From Candidatus Hebobacterum abditum (lineage in GTDB: Bacteria; Armatimonadota; Hebobacteria; Hebobacterales; Hebobacteraceae): a stretch of DNA of 64,000 nt. The position numbers and the translations under genes are program-made. The stretch spans positions 1 through 64,000 of the forward strand of contig JALGXW010000018.1 of NCBI GenBank assembly GCA_029821875.1, given 5' to 3'. The notes under the pieces were generated by a model, which was not told the DNA's origin, made no database searches, and saw only the letters and a list, made by a program, of their open reading frames with translations. Shown in pieces: positions 47,308-61,509 of this stretch (positions within the stretch are counted from its first letter, which is position 1; each line of letters opens with the position of its first letter).

Positions 47308-48186
47308 TCACGCCTCCCGCAGGTAGTCGTGGAGCTTCCCCCACCTCCCCTGTACGATGAGCCGACTCACCTCCGTCAGTCGCGCCTTCAGCGCGGCACG
47401 CTCCGGCGATGCGGCGTCCATGAACAGGTCATCCCATCGCTTGCGCCAGGCAAGAACCAGCTCGCACTCGGCACCGGAAATGTAGCCCTCATCGCGGAGC
47501 TCGCACATCCAGGCGTTGAAGTCGTTCCCCCAGCCCGCCTTCTGCGCGTAGGGAAAAGTGGGGCAGGGGATGATGTCTCGCAGCAGCGAGACCCGCCGCC
47601 GCAGGTGGCCGTTCGCGTCGAGCACGTCGTCCACCAGGTTCGGCGGGAAGACGGAGATGATCTCCTCTCGCTCGCTGAACAGATAGCGATCGTCGATACT
47701 GGCCCCGACGACACGCGTAAAGGCGATGAGATGCGTGTGATAGCGCTCCACGTGATCGACGACACACTCGAGGTTGATGGGGCAGTCGGCGATGCTCGGC
47801 ACGTCGACGTAGAGCGACTTGCAGAGCTGCAGCCGCGCGATGTCCGCTTCGCACACACCCTCCGGCGCACGCTGGCCGCATATTGCCAGCTCGCGAAGCT
47901 GGTCGCGTGTCGGCTCGGCGAGCACGCATTCGGCCCCGGGCGCGCTGAGGTTCCGCACCACTCGCTCGTCATCCAGAGGGATGTTGATCGACTGGCTGTA
48001 GGGCTTCCAGGTCAGTGGACAGAGCGATGTCGAGCGGACGCAGAGGGAGTCGCCGGGCGGGACATCCCGCGTCACGAGCAGCAGCTGGGCCATCGGCGCG
48101 CGCAGCGCGTGGGCCATGGGGTCCATCACCTCTCCCTGCTGGAGAGACTCGATCTCATCGGCGGAGAAGAAGCGTTTGCTGGTCAT
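47308..48186 (-). CDS. Flavin-reductase-like protein (paralogue 2) with C-terminal helical extension
   Basis: 292 residues, ATG 48186 with GAGG 6 nt upstream. FMN-binding split-barrel features: LLLVTRDVPPGDSLCVRS, LSAPGAECVLAEPTRDQL, DCPINLECVVDHVERYHTHLIAFTRVVGASID. A C-terminal extension (from about 230) is helical (GAECELVLAWRKRWDDLF). A neighbour 9 nt upstream is the paralogue. Could be a flavin-dependent oxidoreductase for aromatic or sugar-linked substrates; inferred. Confidence 0.8.
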   Translation of the reverse strand: MTSKRFFSADEIESLQQGEVMDPMAHALRAPMAQLLLVTRDVPPGDSLCVRSTSLCPLTWKPYSQSINIPLDDERVVRNLSAPGAECVLAEPTRDQLRELAICGQRAPEGVCEADIARLQLCKSLYVDVPSIADCPINLECVVDHVERYHTHLIAFTRVVGASIDDRYLFSEREEIISVFPPNLVDDVLDANGHLRRRVSLLRDIIPCPTFPYAQKAGWGNDFNAWMCELRDEGYISGAECELVLAWRKRWDDLFMDAASPERAALKARLTEVSRLIVQGRWGKLHDYLREA

Positions 48187-48194
48187 CGCCATCC

Positions 48195-49064
48195 TCACTC
48201 TCCACTCAACTGCGCGTGGAGGTCGTCCCACTCCTCCCACGCGGCAGACGCGAGCGCGCGGGTGACACGCTCGCGGAGTGCAGGGTTCCGGCCCGCGGCG
48301 CTGCTCAGCTCCTCAATCCAACCGCTGAGCGCGGCGCCCTCGGCCTCGCTGAGATACCCCTCCTGCCGAAGGTCGGCCACCCAGGCCGTCATGTCGCTGT
48401 TGAACCCGCGCTTCGCGCCCGCAGGGAAGCCCGGGCACTCCAGGAGTTCGCCATTCACTCCGAGCCGCTCGATGGACCCACCCCAGATATTGGTCGCGTC
48501 GTCGACCTCGTAGGTTGGGTAGTGGCCGATCTGGCCGGCGCGATCCCGAGTCAGCATCTCTTCGTCGATGCTCGCCGCGACAACCTTGAGGAAGACCGCC
48601 GTTGCGCGGCCATACAAGTCCCTCACGAACTCGACGACGCACTCCAGATTCACGGGGCACTCGGCGATCCCGGGCACACTGACCACCTGAGAGTCCAACA
48701 GGGACAGCTCGGCCACCTCCGCCTCGAAGATGCCGCGGGGAAGCGGGAGCGCCGGTATCCAGGTCTCGCGAATGAGATCCCTGCCGGGAAGCGCCACCAC
48801 GCACTCCGCCCCCACCGCCGACAGGCTCAAGGCGGAGTGTGGGCTCGAGTGCAGATGCAGACAGATCGTGTAGGGATGGTCGGTGAGCGGGCCGAAAGTG
48901 CCGGCGGCCAGATTCAGCTCGCCCGAATCGGGATCGCGGGTGACCAGCAGGTTCGCCGGCCGCGCCGGACGGAAATGATAATAGACGAGCGTCGGATCCT
49001 GGACCCCGGGAAAAGCCGGCTGGCCAAGCAGTTCGTCTGACCCATAGTACAACCTGCCCATCAT
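48195..49064 (-). CDS. Flavin-reductase-like protein (paralogue 1)
   Basis: 289 residues, ATG 49064 with AAAGGAGG 3-4 nt upstream. Split-barrel FMN domain: ANLLVTRDPDSGELNLAAG, HSALSLSAVGAECVVALPGRDL, AECPVNLECVVEFVRDLYGRATAVFLKVVAASID, with a C-terminal helical extension (LRQEGYLSEAEGAALSGW). It is immediately followed by its paralogue (9 nt). Retention of two diverged copies in tandem suggests a heteromer or two substrates. Confidence 0.83.
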   Translation of the reverse strand: MMGRLYYGSDELLGQPAFPGVQDPTLVYYHFRPARPANLLVTRDPDSGELNLAAGTFGPLTDHPYTICLHLHSSPHSALSLSAVGAECVVALPGRDLIRETWIPALPLPRGIFEAEVAELSLLDSQVVSVPGIAECPVNLECVVEFVRDLYGRATAVFLKVVAASIDEEMLTRDRAGQIGHYPTYEVDDATNIWGGSIERLGVNGELLECPGFPAGAKRGFNSDMTAWVADLRQEGYLSEAEGAALSGWIEELSSAAGRNPALRERVTRALASAAWEEWDDLHAQLSGE

Positions 49065-56412: not shown

Positions 56413-57360
56413 GTGGAGAGTGTGAGCTGGACGGCGGAGCGGGCCCGGGCGATTGCGGATGAGATCGAGACGGTCATCGTGGGCAAGCGCGAGGCCGTCG
56501 AGATGGTGGTCATCGGGCTGCTGAGCAACGGCCACCTGCTGATCGAGGACATTCCCGGGGTGGGCAAGACGATGCTGGCGCGGGCGCTGGCCGCGGCGCT
56601 GGGCGCGAAGTACCGGCGCATCCAATTCACGCCCGACCTGCTGCCCGCGGACATCACCGGCACCTCGATCTTCAACCAGAAGACGAGCGAGTTCGCCTTC
56701 CGTCCGGGGCCCATCTTCACCAACGTGCTGCTGGCCGACGAGATCAACCGCGCCACGCCGAAGACGCAGTCGAGCCTGTTGGAGGGCATGGAGGAGTTCC
56801 AGGTCACGGTGGACGGCGCGACCCATGTGCTGGAGCGGCCCTTCTTCGTGATCGCGACGGAGAATCCGATCGAGTACCGGGGCACCTACCCGCTGCCGGA
56901 GGCGCAGCTCGACCGGTTCCTCATGCGCATCAACCTCGGCTATCCGACGCCGGATCAGGAGGTGGTGGTGCTCGACCGGCAGGTGAAGGAGCACCCCATC
57001 CACTCGGTCAAGCCGGTGGCGGAGCGAGATGAAGTGCTGCAGATGCAGCAGAACATCCGCGATGTGCACATCGACCCCTCGTTGAAGCAGTACATGGTGG
57101 ACATCGTTGCGGCCACCCGGGAGCATTCGTCCCTGGTGCTGGGCGCGAGCCCGCGTGCCTCCATCGGCCTCATGCGCACCGGCCAGAGCCGGGCCGCGCT
57201 GCAGGGCCGCGAGTACGTGCTGCCGGATGATGTGAAGGCACTCGCCGCGCCGGTGCTGTGCCACCGCCTCATCCCCAAGCCCGAGGCGAGGATTCGGCCG
57301 GACGAAGTGGCGTCAGTCGTCAGCGAGATCCTCGACCAGATGTCCGTGCCGGCGGTGTAG
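56413..57360 (+). CDS. MoxR-family AAA+ ATPase
   Basis: 315 residues from GTG 56413, with GAGAGGA upstream. Walker A EDIPGVGKT (45-53), Walker B LLADEINRA, sensor 1 FFVIATENPIEYRGT with PLPEAQLDRFLMRI, arginine-finger region and the lid helix ASPRASIGLMRTGQSRA. MoxR ATPases act as chaperones for metalloenzyme or complex maturation. No VWA-domain partner is seen in the window, which is unusual for the family. It may serve the downstream acetyl-CoA-synthase-like protein, but that is speculation. Confidence 0.93.
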   Translation: MESVSWTAERARAIADEIETVIVGKREAVEMVVIGLLSNGHLLIEDIPGVGKTMLARALAAALGAKYRRIQFTPDLLPADITGTSIFNQKTSEFAFRPGPIFTNVLLADEINRATPKTQSSLLEGMEEFQVTVDGATHVLERPFFVIATENPIEYRGTYPLPEAQLDRFLMRINLGYPTPDQEVVVLDRQVKEHPIHSVKPVAERDEVLQMQQNIRDVHIDPSLKQYMVDIVAATREHSSLVLGASPRASIGLMRTGQSRAALQGREYVLPDDVKALAAPVLCHRLIPKPEARIRPDEVASVVSEILDQMSVPAV

Positions 57361-57477: not shown

Positions 57478-58107
57478 GTGTCACTTGATTCACCGATAAC
57501 CAGGATCATTGTGAGCATACCGGCCTTCCTGCCGGCCATCATCCTGCACGAGGTGGCGCACGGCTACGCGGCCTATCTGCTCGGCGACGATACGGCCAAG
57601 CGCGCCGGCCGCCTCACGCTGTCGCCGGTGGCCCACTTCGATCCCATCGGCGCGCTCTTCTTCGTCTTCACCAGCATCGCGGGCGTCGGCTTCGGCTGGG
57701 CGAAGCCGGTTCCGGTGGCGACGCACATGCTGCGCAATCCCCGCCGAGACGACATCCTCGTGAGTCTGGCCGGACCGGCCGCCAACTTCGCTCAGGCGGT
57801 GGTATGGGCGGTGCTGCTGCGGTTCCTGTTCCGGCTGCCCGCCAGCGATTTCGTGCTCGCGCTGGCGACCTTCTGTTACCTCGCCGTCATGATCAACGTC
57901 GTCCTGATGGTGTTCAACCTGCTGCCCATCCCGCCGCTGGACGGCTCCCACGTCGCGCTGCGGCTGCTCGGCGTCGACGACCCGACCCTCGCCAGCCGGC
58001 TTGCGCCGATCGGGTTCGTCGTCCTCTTCCTGCTGGTCGGCACGCGGTTCTTCGGCGGCATCTTCGGCGGGCTGATAGGCCGCGTCCTCGACCTGTTCGT
58101 GCGGTAG
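57478..58107 (+). CDS. Site-2 protease family zinc metalloprotease (M50)
   Basis: 209 residues with about five TM segments. Zn motif HEVAH (His 24, Glu 25, His 28) in TM1, NLLPIPPLDGSHVALRLLG (the third-ligand PPLDG motif) later, GPAANFAQAVVW between. Short M50B class without PDZ domain. Could process membrane regulators such as anti-sigma factors; no direct partner identified. Start GTG 57478. Confidence 0.9.
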   Translation: MSLDSPITRIIVSIPAFLPAIILHEVAHGYAAYLLGDDTAKRAGRLTLSPVAHFDPIGALFFVFTSIAGVGFGWAKPVPVATHMLRNPRRDDILVSLAGPAANFAQAVVWAVLLRFLFRLPASDFVLALATFCYLAVMINVVLMVFNLLPIPPLDGSHVALRLLGVDDPTLASRLAPIGFVVLFLLVGTRFFGGIFGGLIGRVLDLFVR

Positions 58108-58186
58108 TGGCTGTCGGCCTGGCGAGGCAGGCCCGCCGCCGCCATGTCCCGAAGGAATCCCCCGGAACACGTGAGGAGCGAACGCT

Positions 58187-60052
58187 GTGATAGCTGGCCT
58201 GAGAATTCTTGTCGAGCAACTGCCGGAGGAGGTTGTCCCTTTCGGGGGCAGTCAGTTCGCATTTCCGATAAGCGAGGTCTTGTTTGGGTCGCCGCCCGAC
58301 CTCGCGTGGGTTCGAGAGGAGGTCGAACGGCTCGACGCAAGCGACGCGGAGCCACACGAGGCCGCCTGGGTGGCCTTGGCGGCGGCCGAAGCGGCGGAGT
58401 CGGCGCGGCCCGACCGCGGGGAGTGGTTTGTCACCGACGGGCAGTTCCGCGGGATTGTCTTCATGGGTATCAAATGGCGGGCCGGGTGGGCGCTGGTGCT
58501 CGGCGAGCACCAGGAGGCGTACGCCCGCGCCTTCGACGATGCCGGCTTCATGACGTTCGTGACGCGGCCCGGCCTGAAGGTGGGTCGCTTCTTGGGAGAG
58601 CGCGAGACAGCGTCGATCTACTTCGCGCAGCTCCTCGCGCGGTATGCCCTGCTCTACAGCGACGTCGAGCCCGGGCAGAGCCACGAGCTGACGCACTTCA
58701 TCGAGGATCACGGCCCGGCCGTGCTGGTGGTCTCCGGCCGCATGAAGCCTGTCGAGGCGCTGCTGTGCTTGTCGCTCATGCGGCTCGGAGTGGGGGTGAT
58801 CATCGCCGAAGCAGACTTCCCGTGGCAGGTGGGCAACCGCGTGGAGGTCGATTCGCCCGAGGCCGCGGTCGCCGCGACCGGGGGCTTCCAGAACCTGCGA
58901 ATCCGATCGCAGGATGATCCGCTCTCCGCGCTGCCCGAATACGCCGACCCCGCCTTTCTGCGGGAGGAGTTCGAGCCGGCCCGGCGGCTCGGCGGGGGGC
59001 CGAGCAGCTTCCTCTTGCTGCGGGCCGGAAAGGCGGCAGAGGCGGTCAGGACCGAGGCTCTGGCCGATGGCGGCACGGCCGCAACCGAGGACATCGGCAT
59101 TCTGGTCACCATAGATGATCCGACTCTGGACGCGCCGGCCGCGGAGGAGCTGGAGCGCGCCGCGGTCGGCTACCTGAACCTCCTGCGCGGAGTGCGAGTG
59201 GAGCAGGCCGACCCGCTGACGCTCGCACTCAAGGAGGGAGGGGGCCCGACCCTGGAGCAGATAGGCGAGGTCGTCCGGCGCGGCCTCCGGCTCGAGTACC
59301 CGCGGCTGGGCCCGATCCGGGTGGAGGTTATAGCCGATGGGGCGCGGCTCGAGGGCCTGGCCGCGGAGGCGAAGGCGGAGCGGGAGCGCCGGCGGGACGA
59401 GACCGAGCGGATGGCCGAGGGCGACGAAGCCGAAGTCTACTCGTGCGAGTCGTGCGCGCCCTTCTCCCGCGAGCACGTGTGCTTCGTCCATCCGCTTCGC
59501 ACCCCGATGTGCGGCCGGCCCTGGCGAGAGATGCTGGTCGGCGCGCGGTACATGGGCGTGAGCGCCGGCCGGCCCTGGCGCAGGCGCGGCCGGCCGGAGA
59601 ACTGCTGCACGGTCGTGCCCCTCGGCCGCGAGATCGATCCCGTGAAGGGGGAGTACGAGGGCCTGAACGAATTCGTCCGACGTGCCACCGACGGCCGGAT
59701 GGAGCGCGTGTTCTTGCACTCGGTGAGAGACTACCCCCACAGCTCCTGCGGGTGCTTCTACGCCCTCGCCTGGTGGAGCGAGGAGATGGGCGGCATCGGC
59801 CTCATGCAGCGGGGCTTCTCCGGGACGGCGCCCGATGGGTCCACCTGGAACACGCTGGCCAATCGGGCCGGCGGCAAGCAACAGCCCGGCATCACGGGCC
59901 TCGCCATCGGGTACATGCGCTCCCCCAAGTTCCTCCAGGGAGACGGCGGCTGGGGCGCGGTCAAGTGGATGACGCAGAGGCTCAAGGACGAGCTGCGAGA
60001 GGCCGTGCCGGAGGTCGAGGGGATCGCCACAGAGGAAGACGCAGGAGAGTAG
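58187..60052 (+). CDS. acsB: Acetyl-CoA synthase (AcsB/CdhC) family protein with intact A-cluster motif
   Basis: 621 residues, GTG 58187 with GAGGAG 8 nt upstream. C-terminal A-cluster residues: Cys 420, 423, 432, 442 (C-x2-C-x8-C-x9-C) and the CGC tripeptide 521-523, with Phe 426 three residues after the second Cys, as in known acetyl-CoA synthases. Other signatures: GGIGLMQRGFSGTAPDGSTW, NTLANRAGGKQQPGI, DGGWGAVKWM. The N-terminal 400 residues resemble the AcsB CODH-interaction and middle domains (RYALLYSDVEPGQ, AVLVVSGRMKPVEALL). Normally builds acetyl-CoA from CO, CoA and a corrinoid methyl group. No cooS, acsCD or acsE neighbour is present, so its actual substrate is open. Confidence 0.88.
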   Translation: MIAGLRILVEQLPEEVVPFGGSQFAFPISEVLFGSPPDLAWVREEVERLDASDAEPHEAAWVALAAAEAAESARPDRGEWFVTDGQFRGIVFMGIKWRAGWALVLGEHQEAYARAFDDAGFMTFVTRPGLKVGRFLGERETASIYFAQLLARYALLYSDVEPGQSHELTHFIEDHGPAVLVVSGRMKPVEALLCLSLMRLGVGVIIAEADFPWQVGNRVEVDSPEAAVAATGGFQNLRIRSQDDPLSALPEYADPAFLREEFEPARRLGGGPSSFLLLRAGKAAEAVRTEALADGGTAATEDIGILVTIDDPTLDAPAAEELERAAVGYLNLLRGVRVEQADPLTLALKEGGGPTLEQIGEVVRRGLRLEYPRLGPIRVEVIADGARLEGLAAEAKAERERRRDETERMAEGDEAEVYSCESCAPFSREHVCFVHPLRTPMCGRPWREMLVGARYMGVSAGRPWRRRGRPENCCTVVPLGREIDPVKGEYEGLNEFVRRATDGRMERVFLHSVRDYPHSSCGCFYALAWWSEEMGGIGLMQRGFSGTAPDGSTWNTLANRAGGKQQPGITGLAIGYMRSPKFLQGDGGWGAVKWMTQRLKDELREAVPEVEGIATEEDAGE

Positions 60053-60150: not shown

Positions 60151-60972
60151 ATGCGGTTCGCCTTCTGCAACGAGGGCTTCGGGGAAGCCGCCTGGCCCCT
60201 CGTGTGCCGCACCATCGCGGAGGCGGGGTATGACGGCGTGGAAATCGCGCCCTTCACCTTCGCGCCCAGCGTGCAGAGCATCCCGTCCCATCGCCGAGCC
60301 GAGATCCAGTCGGCCGCGCACGACGCGGGCCTGGAGATCGTGGGCCTCCACTGGATTCTGGCGGAGACAGAGGGGCTGCACGTGGGGCATCCCGATGCCA
60401 GCGTCCGTCGGCGCACGCGGGACTACGTGTGTCATCTCGCGGACTTCTGTGCCGACCTCGGCGGCCGGGTGATGGTGCTCGGCTCGCCCAACCAGCGCGG
60501 GCAGGTCGGAGGCGCGAGCGATGAGGACACGTGGAGGTGGGCGGCCGAGACTCTCGAGGGCGCGCTCGACACCCTGGCCGAGCGCCAGGTCATGCTGTGC
60601 ATCGAGCCCCTCTGCACGGAGGAGACGGAGTTCATCAACACCGCGGAGGAAGGCCGGCGGCTGGTGGATGAACTCGGCCACCCGAGCTTCGGGCTGATGC
60701 TCGACGTCCACGCCATGGCCCTATCCGAGTCGCGCCCCATGGAAGACGTGATCAAGGACCAGCGCGAGGTCTTGGCACACGTCCACGCCAACGATGCCAA
60801 CCGGCAGGGCCCCGGGTGCGGCGAGGTGGACTTCCATCCCATCCTGAAGGCCCTCCGCCAGATCGGATATGACGGCTACGTGTCGGTGGAGCCGTTCGAG
60901 TTCGACCCGGACGCGGAGACCGTGGCGCGGCGGTGTGTTCGCTACCTGCGGGACTGCCTGCCCAGTGAGTGA
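60151..60972 (+). CDS. Sugar phosphate isomerase/epimerase-like TIM barrel (paralogue 1)
   Basis: 273 residues of the xylose-isomerase-like/AP-endonuclease-2 fold: RFAFCNEGFGEAAWPLV, YDGVEIAPFTF, LMLDVHAMALSESRP, VLAHVHANDANRQGPG, YVSVEPFEF. Conserved Glu/His/Asp metal residues in E-P-L, LDVH, HVHANDAN, SVEPFEF. Exact substrate unknown. A distant relative lies at 61645. It is overlapped at its end by the MoaD-like gene. Confidence 0.88.
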   Translation: MRFAFCNEGFGEAAWPLVCRTIAEAGYDGVEIAPFTFAPSVQSIPSHRRAEIQSAAHDAGLEIVGLHWILAETEGLHVGHPDASVRRRTRDYVCHLADFCADLGGRVMVLGSPNQRGQVGGASDEDTWRWAAETLEGALDTLAERQVMLCIEPLCTEETEFINTAEEGRRLVDELGHPSFGLMLDVHAMALSESRPMEDVIKDQREVLAHVHANDANRQGPGCGEVDFHPILKALRQIGYDGYVSVEPFEFDPDAETVARRCVRYLRDCLPSE

Positions 60973-61365: not shown

Positions 61366-61509
61366 ATGTGTGAGTGCTGCAAGCCTGAGCCGAAGACGTG
61401 TGAGAAGGGAAAGGATCCGAAGACCTGCACGACCGAGCAGGTCAAGGATTGCCACGGCGACACCAAGAAGCACGAGTGCGAAGAGGCCTCCGCCGAGGCC
61501 TCGAAGTAG
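61366..61509 (+). CDS. 47-residue cysteine-rich acidic/basic miniprotein
   Basis: ATG 61366 has AAGGAG 9-10 nt upstream. Cys at positions 2, 4, 5, 12, 21, 29 and 38 are visible (MCECC..., KTC, DPKTC, DC, HEC), with many Lys/Glu and an Ala/Ser/Glu tail. A Cys-rich, metallothionein-like or cluster-binding peptide is plausible; no homology claimed. It has its own strong terminator at 61526-61560, so it is a monocistronic unit. It is too short to appear as a long ORF, but codon-level features and ribosome site support it. Confidence 0.65.
   Translation: MCECCKPEPKTCEKGKDPKTCTTEQVKDCHGDTKKHECEEASAEASK

Follow-up and report, generated by a model that had tools for sequence, protein, structure and literature searches.

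We found that a stand-alone gene in the 64,000-nucleotide stretch of the Candidatus Hebobacterum abditum genome analysed here (the window) encodes a small protein with all the predicted ligands of the acetyl-CoA synthase (ACS) A-cluster. From its sequence, we read this protein, with a probability of roughly 45%, as a member of a third deep ACS clade that would act as a CODH-independent A-cluster enzyme, performing CO/acyl chemistry with an altered acyl acceptor. The more general part of this reading, that we are dealing with an A-cluster metalloprotein and that its chemistry is of the Ni-CO/acyl type, is well favoured by the same evidence. ACS is a nickel enzyme of ancient carbon fixation that couples CO to a methyl group (EC 2.3.1.169: CO + methyl + CoA -> acetyl-CoA). 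To our knowledge, its A-cluster has been described in no other setting than the CODH/ACS complex, in which a tunnel delivers the CO. The orphan, as we call the window protein (58187-60052, genome G000) and its relatives in genomes G008, G281 and G256, probably does related nickel chemistry alone.

Homology between the orphan and ACS is far beyond chance, given its Pfam, NCBIfam and solved-structure matches, and the first-pass annotation of an orphan ACS-like gene is therefore confirmed. Its sole Pfam match is PF19436 (ACS_CODH_B_C), spanning residues 402-608 with 132.7 bits against a curated cut-off of 25 (E 2.1e-38), which places it in the A-cluster superfamily, and solved ACS structures match it at E 1e-42 to 1e-31. 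The NCBIfam CdhC/AcsB models also match (E 5e-57 to 6e-62), all under their curated cut-offs: the AcsB models NF040764 and NF007078 score 193.6 and 196.7 bits (cut-offs 800 and 809) and the CdhC model TIGR00316 scores 201.2 bits (equivalog cut-off 355.95). A GAGGAG sequence (58173-58178) lies 8 nt 5' of the start codon. The coordinates of the gene, its parts and its neighbours are collected in Table 1.

Table 1. Features of the orphan ACS-like gene and its neighbours in the window.
Feature	Position	Strand	Basis and remarks
Orphan ACS-like gene	58187..60052	+	621 aa, GTG start; PF19436 E 2.1e-38; PDB matches; kept in relatives
A1-like N-terminal domain, residues 1-300 (approximate)	58187..59086	+	hhalign to AcsB A1; start and several loops shorter than in AcsB
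Helix R88 to W97, aligned with the AcsB gating helix	58448..58477	+	Alignment
Tyr157 at the CO-alcove position F229	58655..58657	+	Alignment
A2 middle domain, residues 301-415	59087..59431	+	Not recognised by PF03598
Site of the lost QR-x3-W-x-R-[IV]-[SG] motif, residues 337-349	59195..59233	+	Alignment
A3 A-cluster domain, residues 416-621	59432..60049	+	PF19436; hhalign
C420-x2-C423-x8-C432-x9-C442, predicted [4Fe-4S] ligands; F426 = F512	59444..59512	+	4/4 orphans and all canonical ACS compared
GRPWRRR, core of the Arg/Trp-rich insert that follows the Fe-S motif in orphans only	59567..59587	+	Alignment
C521-G522-C523, predicted distal/proximal Ni ligands	59747..59755	+	Alignment
M50-type intramembrane protease, upstream of the orphan	57478..58107	+	PF02163; gene order kept in G008; at most a candidate member of the system
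Xylose-isomerase-like TIM barrel (IolO-like), downstream of the orphan	60151..60972	+	PF01261; NF041099 below cut-off; order kept in G008; at most a candidate member of the system

The orphans keep the positions around the metal site that are invariant across all ACS, and in A2 almost none of the invariant positions survives. Exactly six cysteines are common to the four orphans, namely C420, C423, C432, C442, C521 and C523, and they are the A-cluster ligands. The complete cysteine set, the CGC motif and the conserved phenylalanine described at first pass are indeed present, and the latter (F426, F512 in M. thermoacetica numbering) is retained across the orphans together with R88 (R142). A sequencing error is unlikely, since the ligands recur in the 88% identical protein of another species (L008), where the gene order is the same as well. 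In hhalign comparisons, A3 matches CdhC at E 1e-53 and AcsB at 2e-45.

The A1-A2-A3 order is found in a single chain in the orphan, and the earlier statement that the N-terminal domains match the AcsB layout held in part. Roughly the first 215 residues are remotely homologous to bacterial AcsB A1 (hhalign probability 96.6, E 5.5e-10, 21% identity over 204 columns), but Pfam recognised neither PF18537 (CODH_A_N) nor PF03598 (CdhC middle domain) in the window, G281 and G256 orphan proteins, both being present in the genome's own AcsB. An AlphaFold model built from two sequences only reached a mean pLDDT of 35 and a pTM of 0.23.

The roles of R142, G145, I146 and V149 in ACS have been described (PMC11474084, PMC11321310, PMC12289521): R142 bonds to the glycine ligating the distal Ni (PMC11474084), and the gating helix has a hinge glycine (PMC12289521). 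In the aligned orphan helix, R142 is kept, whereas G145, I146 and V149 are replaced by V91, F92 and I95, respectively; across the orphans the hinge glycine is gone and the V149 position holds Ile or Ala. At the CO-alcove position F229, G000 and G008 carry Tyr, and G281 and G256 carry Trp. M. thermoacetica ACS binds CO with a Kd of 12.8 uM; its F229W variant has an 80-fold higher affinity, and the equivalent of F229A abolishes autotrophic growth of C. autoethanogenum (PMC11321310). Since Tyr and Trp co-occur with other alcove changes in the orphans, the F229W data apply to them by analogy only, and on this analogy the orphan alcove is likely tuned toward tight CO binding.

The A2 domain aligns weakly with AcsB (hhalign E 1e-7), so that losses of single residues in it can be trusted less than that of the QR-x3-W-x-R-[IV]-[SG] motif, which occurs in 30/30 canonical AcsB/CdhC compared, bacterial and archaeal, and in 0/4 orphans. 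By offset, the W and R of this motif correspond to W427 and R429 of M. thermoacetica ACS, which we take to be CoA-site residues. CoA has been located on the ACS middle domain, with no residues named (PMC12289521). Within the orphan-specific insert, R462, P463, W464, R466 and R467 are invariant (R-P-W-x-R-R), and one might speculate that this insert stands in for the lost W/R contacts of the A2 motif.

Bacterial AcsB (C. hydrogenoformans 7zkj, M. thermoacetica 1oao) resembles the orphan in its three-domain chain, its full set of A-cluster ligands and the F512 and R142 equivalents. Compared with it, the orphan is about 110-125 residues shorter (621 against 747 residues for the genome's own AcsB, in line with the shortness noted at first pass), shares 24-26% overall identity with Armatimonadota AcsB, lacks recognised PF18537/PF03598 domains and the QR-x3-W-x-R motif, carries G145V, I146F and F229Y/W, and has the extra R/W-rich insert and no cooS/acsCDE linkage. 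Its A-cluster domain resembles archaeal CdhC (ACDS beta subunit, M. thermophila 9c0s) slightly more than AcsB, the A3 identities being 39-42% for orphan-CdhC, about 36% for orphan-AcsB and 49% for AcsB-CdhC. However, CdhC has no A1 and keeps QR-x3-W-x-R, whereas the orphan has an A1-like domain and lost the motif; moreover, the CdhC-type genes we read sit beside other cdh genes, and the orphan does not.

The phylogenetic comparison with AcsB and CdhC proposed at first pass resolved the orphan as a deep separate clade, with long branches as a caveat. In the A2-A3 tree, the four orphans form one clade (support 100/100) outside bacterial AcsB, which groups without them at 100/98. Forcing the orphans together with Armatimonadota AcsB was rejected (p-AU 0.004), and with it a nesting of the orphans within that group. 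The branch to the orphan clade is very long, exceeding the AcsB-CdhC branch, so that the clade may be either an ancient third lineage or an offshoot that evolved fast. The stronger proposal, that the orphans are a third primary ACS lineage beside AcsB and CdhC, whose Ni-CO/acyl chemistry on free CO or a non-CoA acceptor would be independent of CODH and the Wood-Ljungdahl pathway, appears doubtful to us. We met no account of such a clade in the literature searched, and an earlier notice in the main ACS phylogeny (Adam et al. 2018) is possible.

Between the window and G008 orphans, dN/dS is 0.24 for the whole gene, 0.55 for A2 and 0.12 for A3, and the overall and A3 values indicate that the gene is maintained. 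These values, together with the same gene order in G008, argue against contamination and against a pseudogene. We also considered that the gene might be left over, in decay, from a Wood-Ljungdahl pathway of older date, or might be a binning or assembly artefact, which would agree with the sporadic occurrence (4/291 Armatimonadota genomes) and with the long branches. This seems to us highly implausible in view of the open frame, the low dN/dS, the ligands kept in three genera, the gene order shared with an independent MAG (G008) and the extant Wood-Ljungdahl pathway of the host genome.

The host genome (G000; 4.31 Mb, 103 contigs, 95% complete, 3.7% contamination) belongs to 'Ca. Hebobacteria' of the Armatimonadota, a class for which a Wood-Ljungdahl pathway has been reported (PMC10290634). 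Its contig C40, separate from that of the orphan, carries a complete acs/coo cluster with a 747-residue AcsB (PF18537 + PF03598 + PF19436), AcsC, AcsD, an AcsE-like pterin-binding protein and CooS, as well as a RACo-type activator and MetF-like and hydrogenase-like genes. Besides this AcsB, the orphan is the only PF19436 protein of the genome, and a homology search found no CODH, corrinoid-protein or second ACS homologue elsewhere on the orphan's contig. Since the complete cluster on C40 has its own AcsB, the orphan is a divergent paralogue outside the cluster rather than what is left of a pathway since lost. The first-pass annotation had suggested either a reassigned acyl-CoA synthase or a residue of an older Wood-Ljungdahl pathway: the former fits the deep clade, the intact metal site and the altered A2 and CO pocket, while the latter is contradicted by the separate cluster and by the purifying selection on the orphan. 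It had also weighed a complete acs/coo cluster elsewhere in the genome with which the gene would group; the cluster does exist, but the orphan falls outside the AcsB clade.

A profile built from the window protein and the 88% identical G008 protein, searched against 291 Armatimonadota genomes, recovered four full-length orphans in three genera, matching at 1e-124; all the other matches were ordinary AcsB or fragments, the best at about 1e-36. G008 belongs to the same genus as the window genome, and its orphan (locus L008) is 88% identical to the window protein, whereas G281 and G256 belong to other families and their orphans share 37-40% identity, the values among all four falling as low as 35-38%. 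Canonical AcsB and corrinoid proteins are present in G008 and G281. G281 also has CooS, its complete acs/coo set lying on contigs other than the orphan's; no CooS was found above cut-off in G008. In G256, no AcsB, AcsC/AcsD (CdhD-family) or CooS match was found above cut-off, which is not proof of absence, the completeness of this genome being 88% and its contamination 7%. Outside Armatimonadota the sampling was very sparse and covered 106 further bacterial genomes, in which there was no orphan-type match, and three genomes around each of two non-Armatimonadota genomes. A scan of viral contigs with the four-sequence alignment found no relative, and tblastn of plasmid records gave one partial match only (30% identity, Acetoanaerobium noterae).

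The canonical Wood-Ljungdahl genes of G000, G008 and G281 could serve the orphan in trans. The complete acs/coo sets on other contigs in G000 and G281, and the fully kept A-cluster, would suit a conventional second ACS making acetyl-CoA, perhaps under other conditions, with CODH and corrinoid protein supplied in trans by the same genome. Such an isozyme is nevertheless unlikely, as the pan-ACS A2 residues are lost, CODH_A_N is unrecognised, the orphan is never co-localised with an acs/coo cluster, and G256 has no CODH or corrinoid-protein match above cut-off.

Alternatively, the orphan might release CO from acyl-CoA, in parallel to what has reportedly been proposed for D. mccartyi. The gene stands alone, has an intact A-cluster and occurs in a genome with no detected CODH (G256), all of which would be consistent with this function. 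However, D. mccartyi uses an ordinary AcsB together with its corrinoid protein, while the orphan is devoid of the middle-domain motif and G256 of AcsC/AcsD matches, and we consider this possibility quite improbable.

The neighbours of the orphan vary over the three contexts read. In G000/G008 they are the M50 protease and the TIM-barrel isomerase; in G281, whose orphan is at a contig end, CcdA-like and thioredoxin-like genes; and in G256, carbohydrate-related genes, those of G281 and G256 being named by reading the sequence. In none of these contexts do CODH, corrinoid-protein or methyltransferase genes adjoin the orphan, as first stated for the window, and no linkage to cooS/acsCDE was seen. 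This isolation from metabolic partner genes, the loss of the CoA-domain motif and an alcove that likely favours tight CO binding (by alignment and PMC11321310) could also be expected of a CO/nickel sensor or carbonyl-handling protein holding an A-cluster without turnover. Yet Pfam recognised no DNA-binding, signalling or other effector domain, and the residues surrounding the cluster are kept as in enzymes, which makes a sensor very unlikely.

Further along the window, a MoxR-type AAA ATPase (56413-57360), codirectional with the orphan, is directly followed by the M50 protease instead of a DUF58-type partner, and a role of this ATPase in metal insertion is conceivable. A 47-residue Cys-rich protein (61366-61509), with a CxCC start and a metallothionein-like look, is encoded between a ThiS/MoaD-like gene and a TIM-barrel isomerase; it has seven cysteines, and not the eight of the class to which it had been assigned. 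Two adjacent paralogues on the minus strand (48195-49064 and 47308-48240) are flavin-reductase-like, as named from reading the sequence only.

Other unusual ACS genes were met in the genomes searched. One Armatimonadota genome has two AcsB frames of canonical length (755 and 789 residues; G250:C26 and G250:C13), and a bacterial 1.0-Mb genome (G355:C21, L075:1291-2511) encodes an archaeal-type CdhC of 406 residues with no A1, followed by an AcsC-like gene. Similarly to the orphan, a 172-residue mini-ACS paralogue of Archaeoglobus (L009:1046-1564) is a second, non-canonical PF19436 protein alongside an ordinary CdhC, and it keeps the four Fe-S cysteines. Unlike the orphan, it has neither A1 nor A2, its branch is too long to place, and it cannot bind Ni as ACS does because CGC is replaced by TSPL. 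In Archaeoglobus sp. MAG 85 (G291:C15), this gene overlaps one that is radical-SAM-like, a MoaA-like gene lies downstream, and the same contig has nitrogenase-like and homocitrate-synthase-like genes (named from reading the sequence). The acetogen without canonical CODH/ACS (PMC7000372) is not the same thing, as no ACS homologue is reported there.

Considering the frozen metal site, the tuned CO pocket, the rewritten middle domain and the lack of partner genes, we favour a CODH-independent A-cluster enzyme with an altered acceptor. The single-chain orphan would build a normal Ni-Ni-[4Fe-4S] A-cluster and work with no CODH dedicated to it. CO, either free or from an acyl substrate, would bind the proximal Ni in the reshaped alcove (Phe229 to Tyr/Trp, Ile146 to Phe), which may be tuned to hold CO tightly where no CODH tunnel supplies it. 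On Ni, an alkyl or methyl group would then be joined to, or split from, CO, and the acyl group might be exchanged with an acceptor other than the CoA canonically bound by the middle domain, possibly via the clade's W-x-R-R insert near the cluster.

Annotation based on PF19436 or at the EC level would miscount such genes, for example that of G256, as evidence for carbon fixation. As small single-chain proteins, the orphans may allow direct tests of how tightly CO is bound, which acceptor is chosen and whether ACS is as ancient as claimed. If our reading is true, A-cluster chemistry would exist outside the Wood-Ljungdahl pathway, in proteins that kept the metal site, bear natural F229W/Y alcoves and dropped both the CODH linkage and the middle-domain motif.
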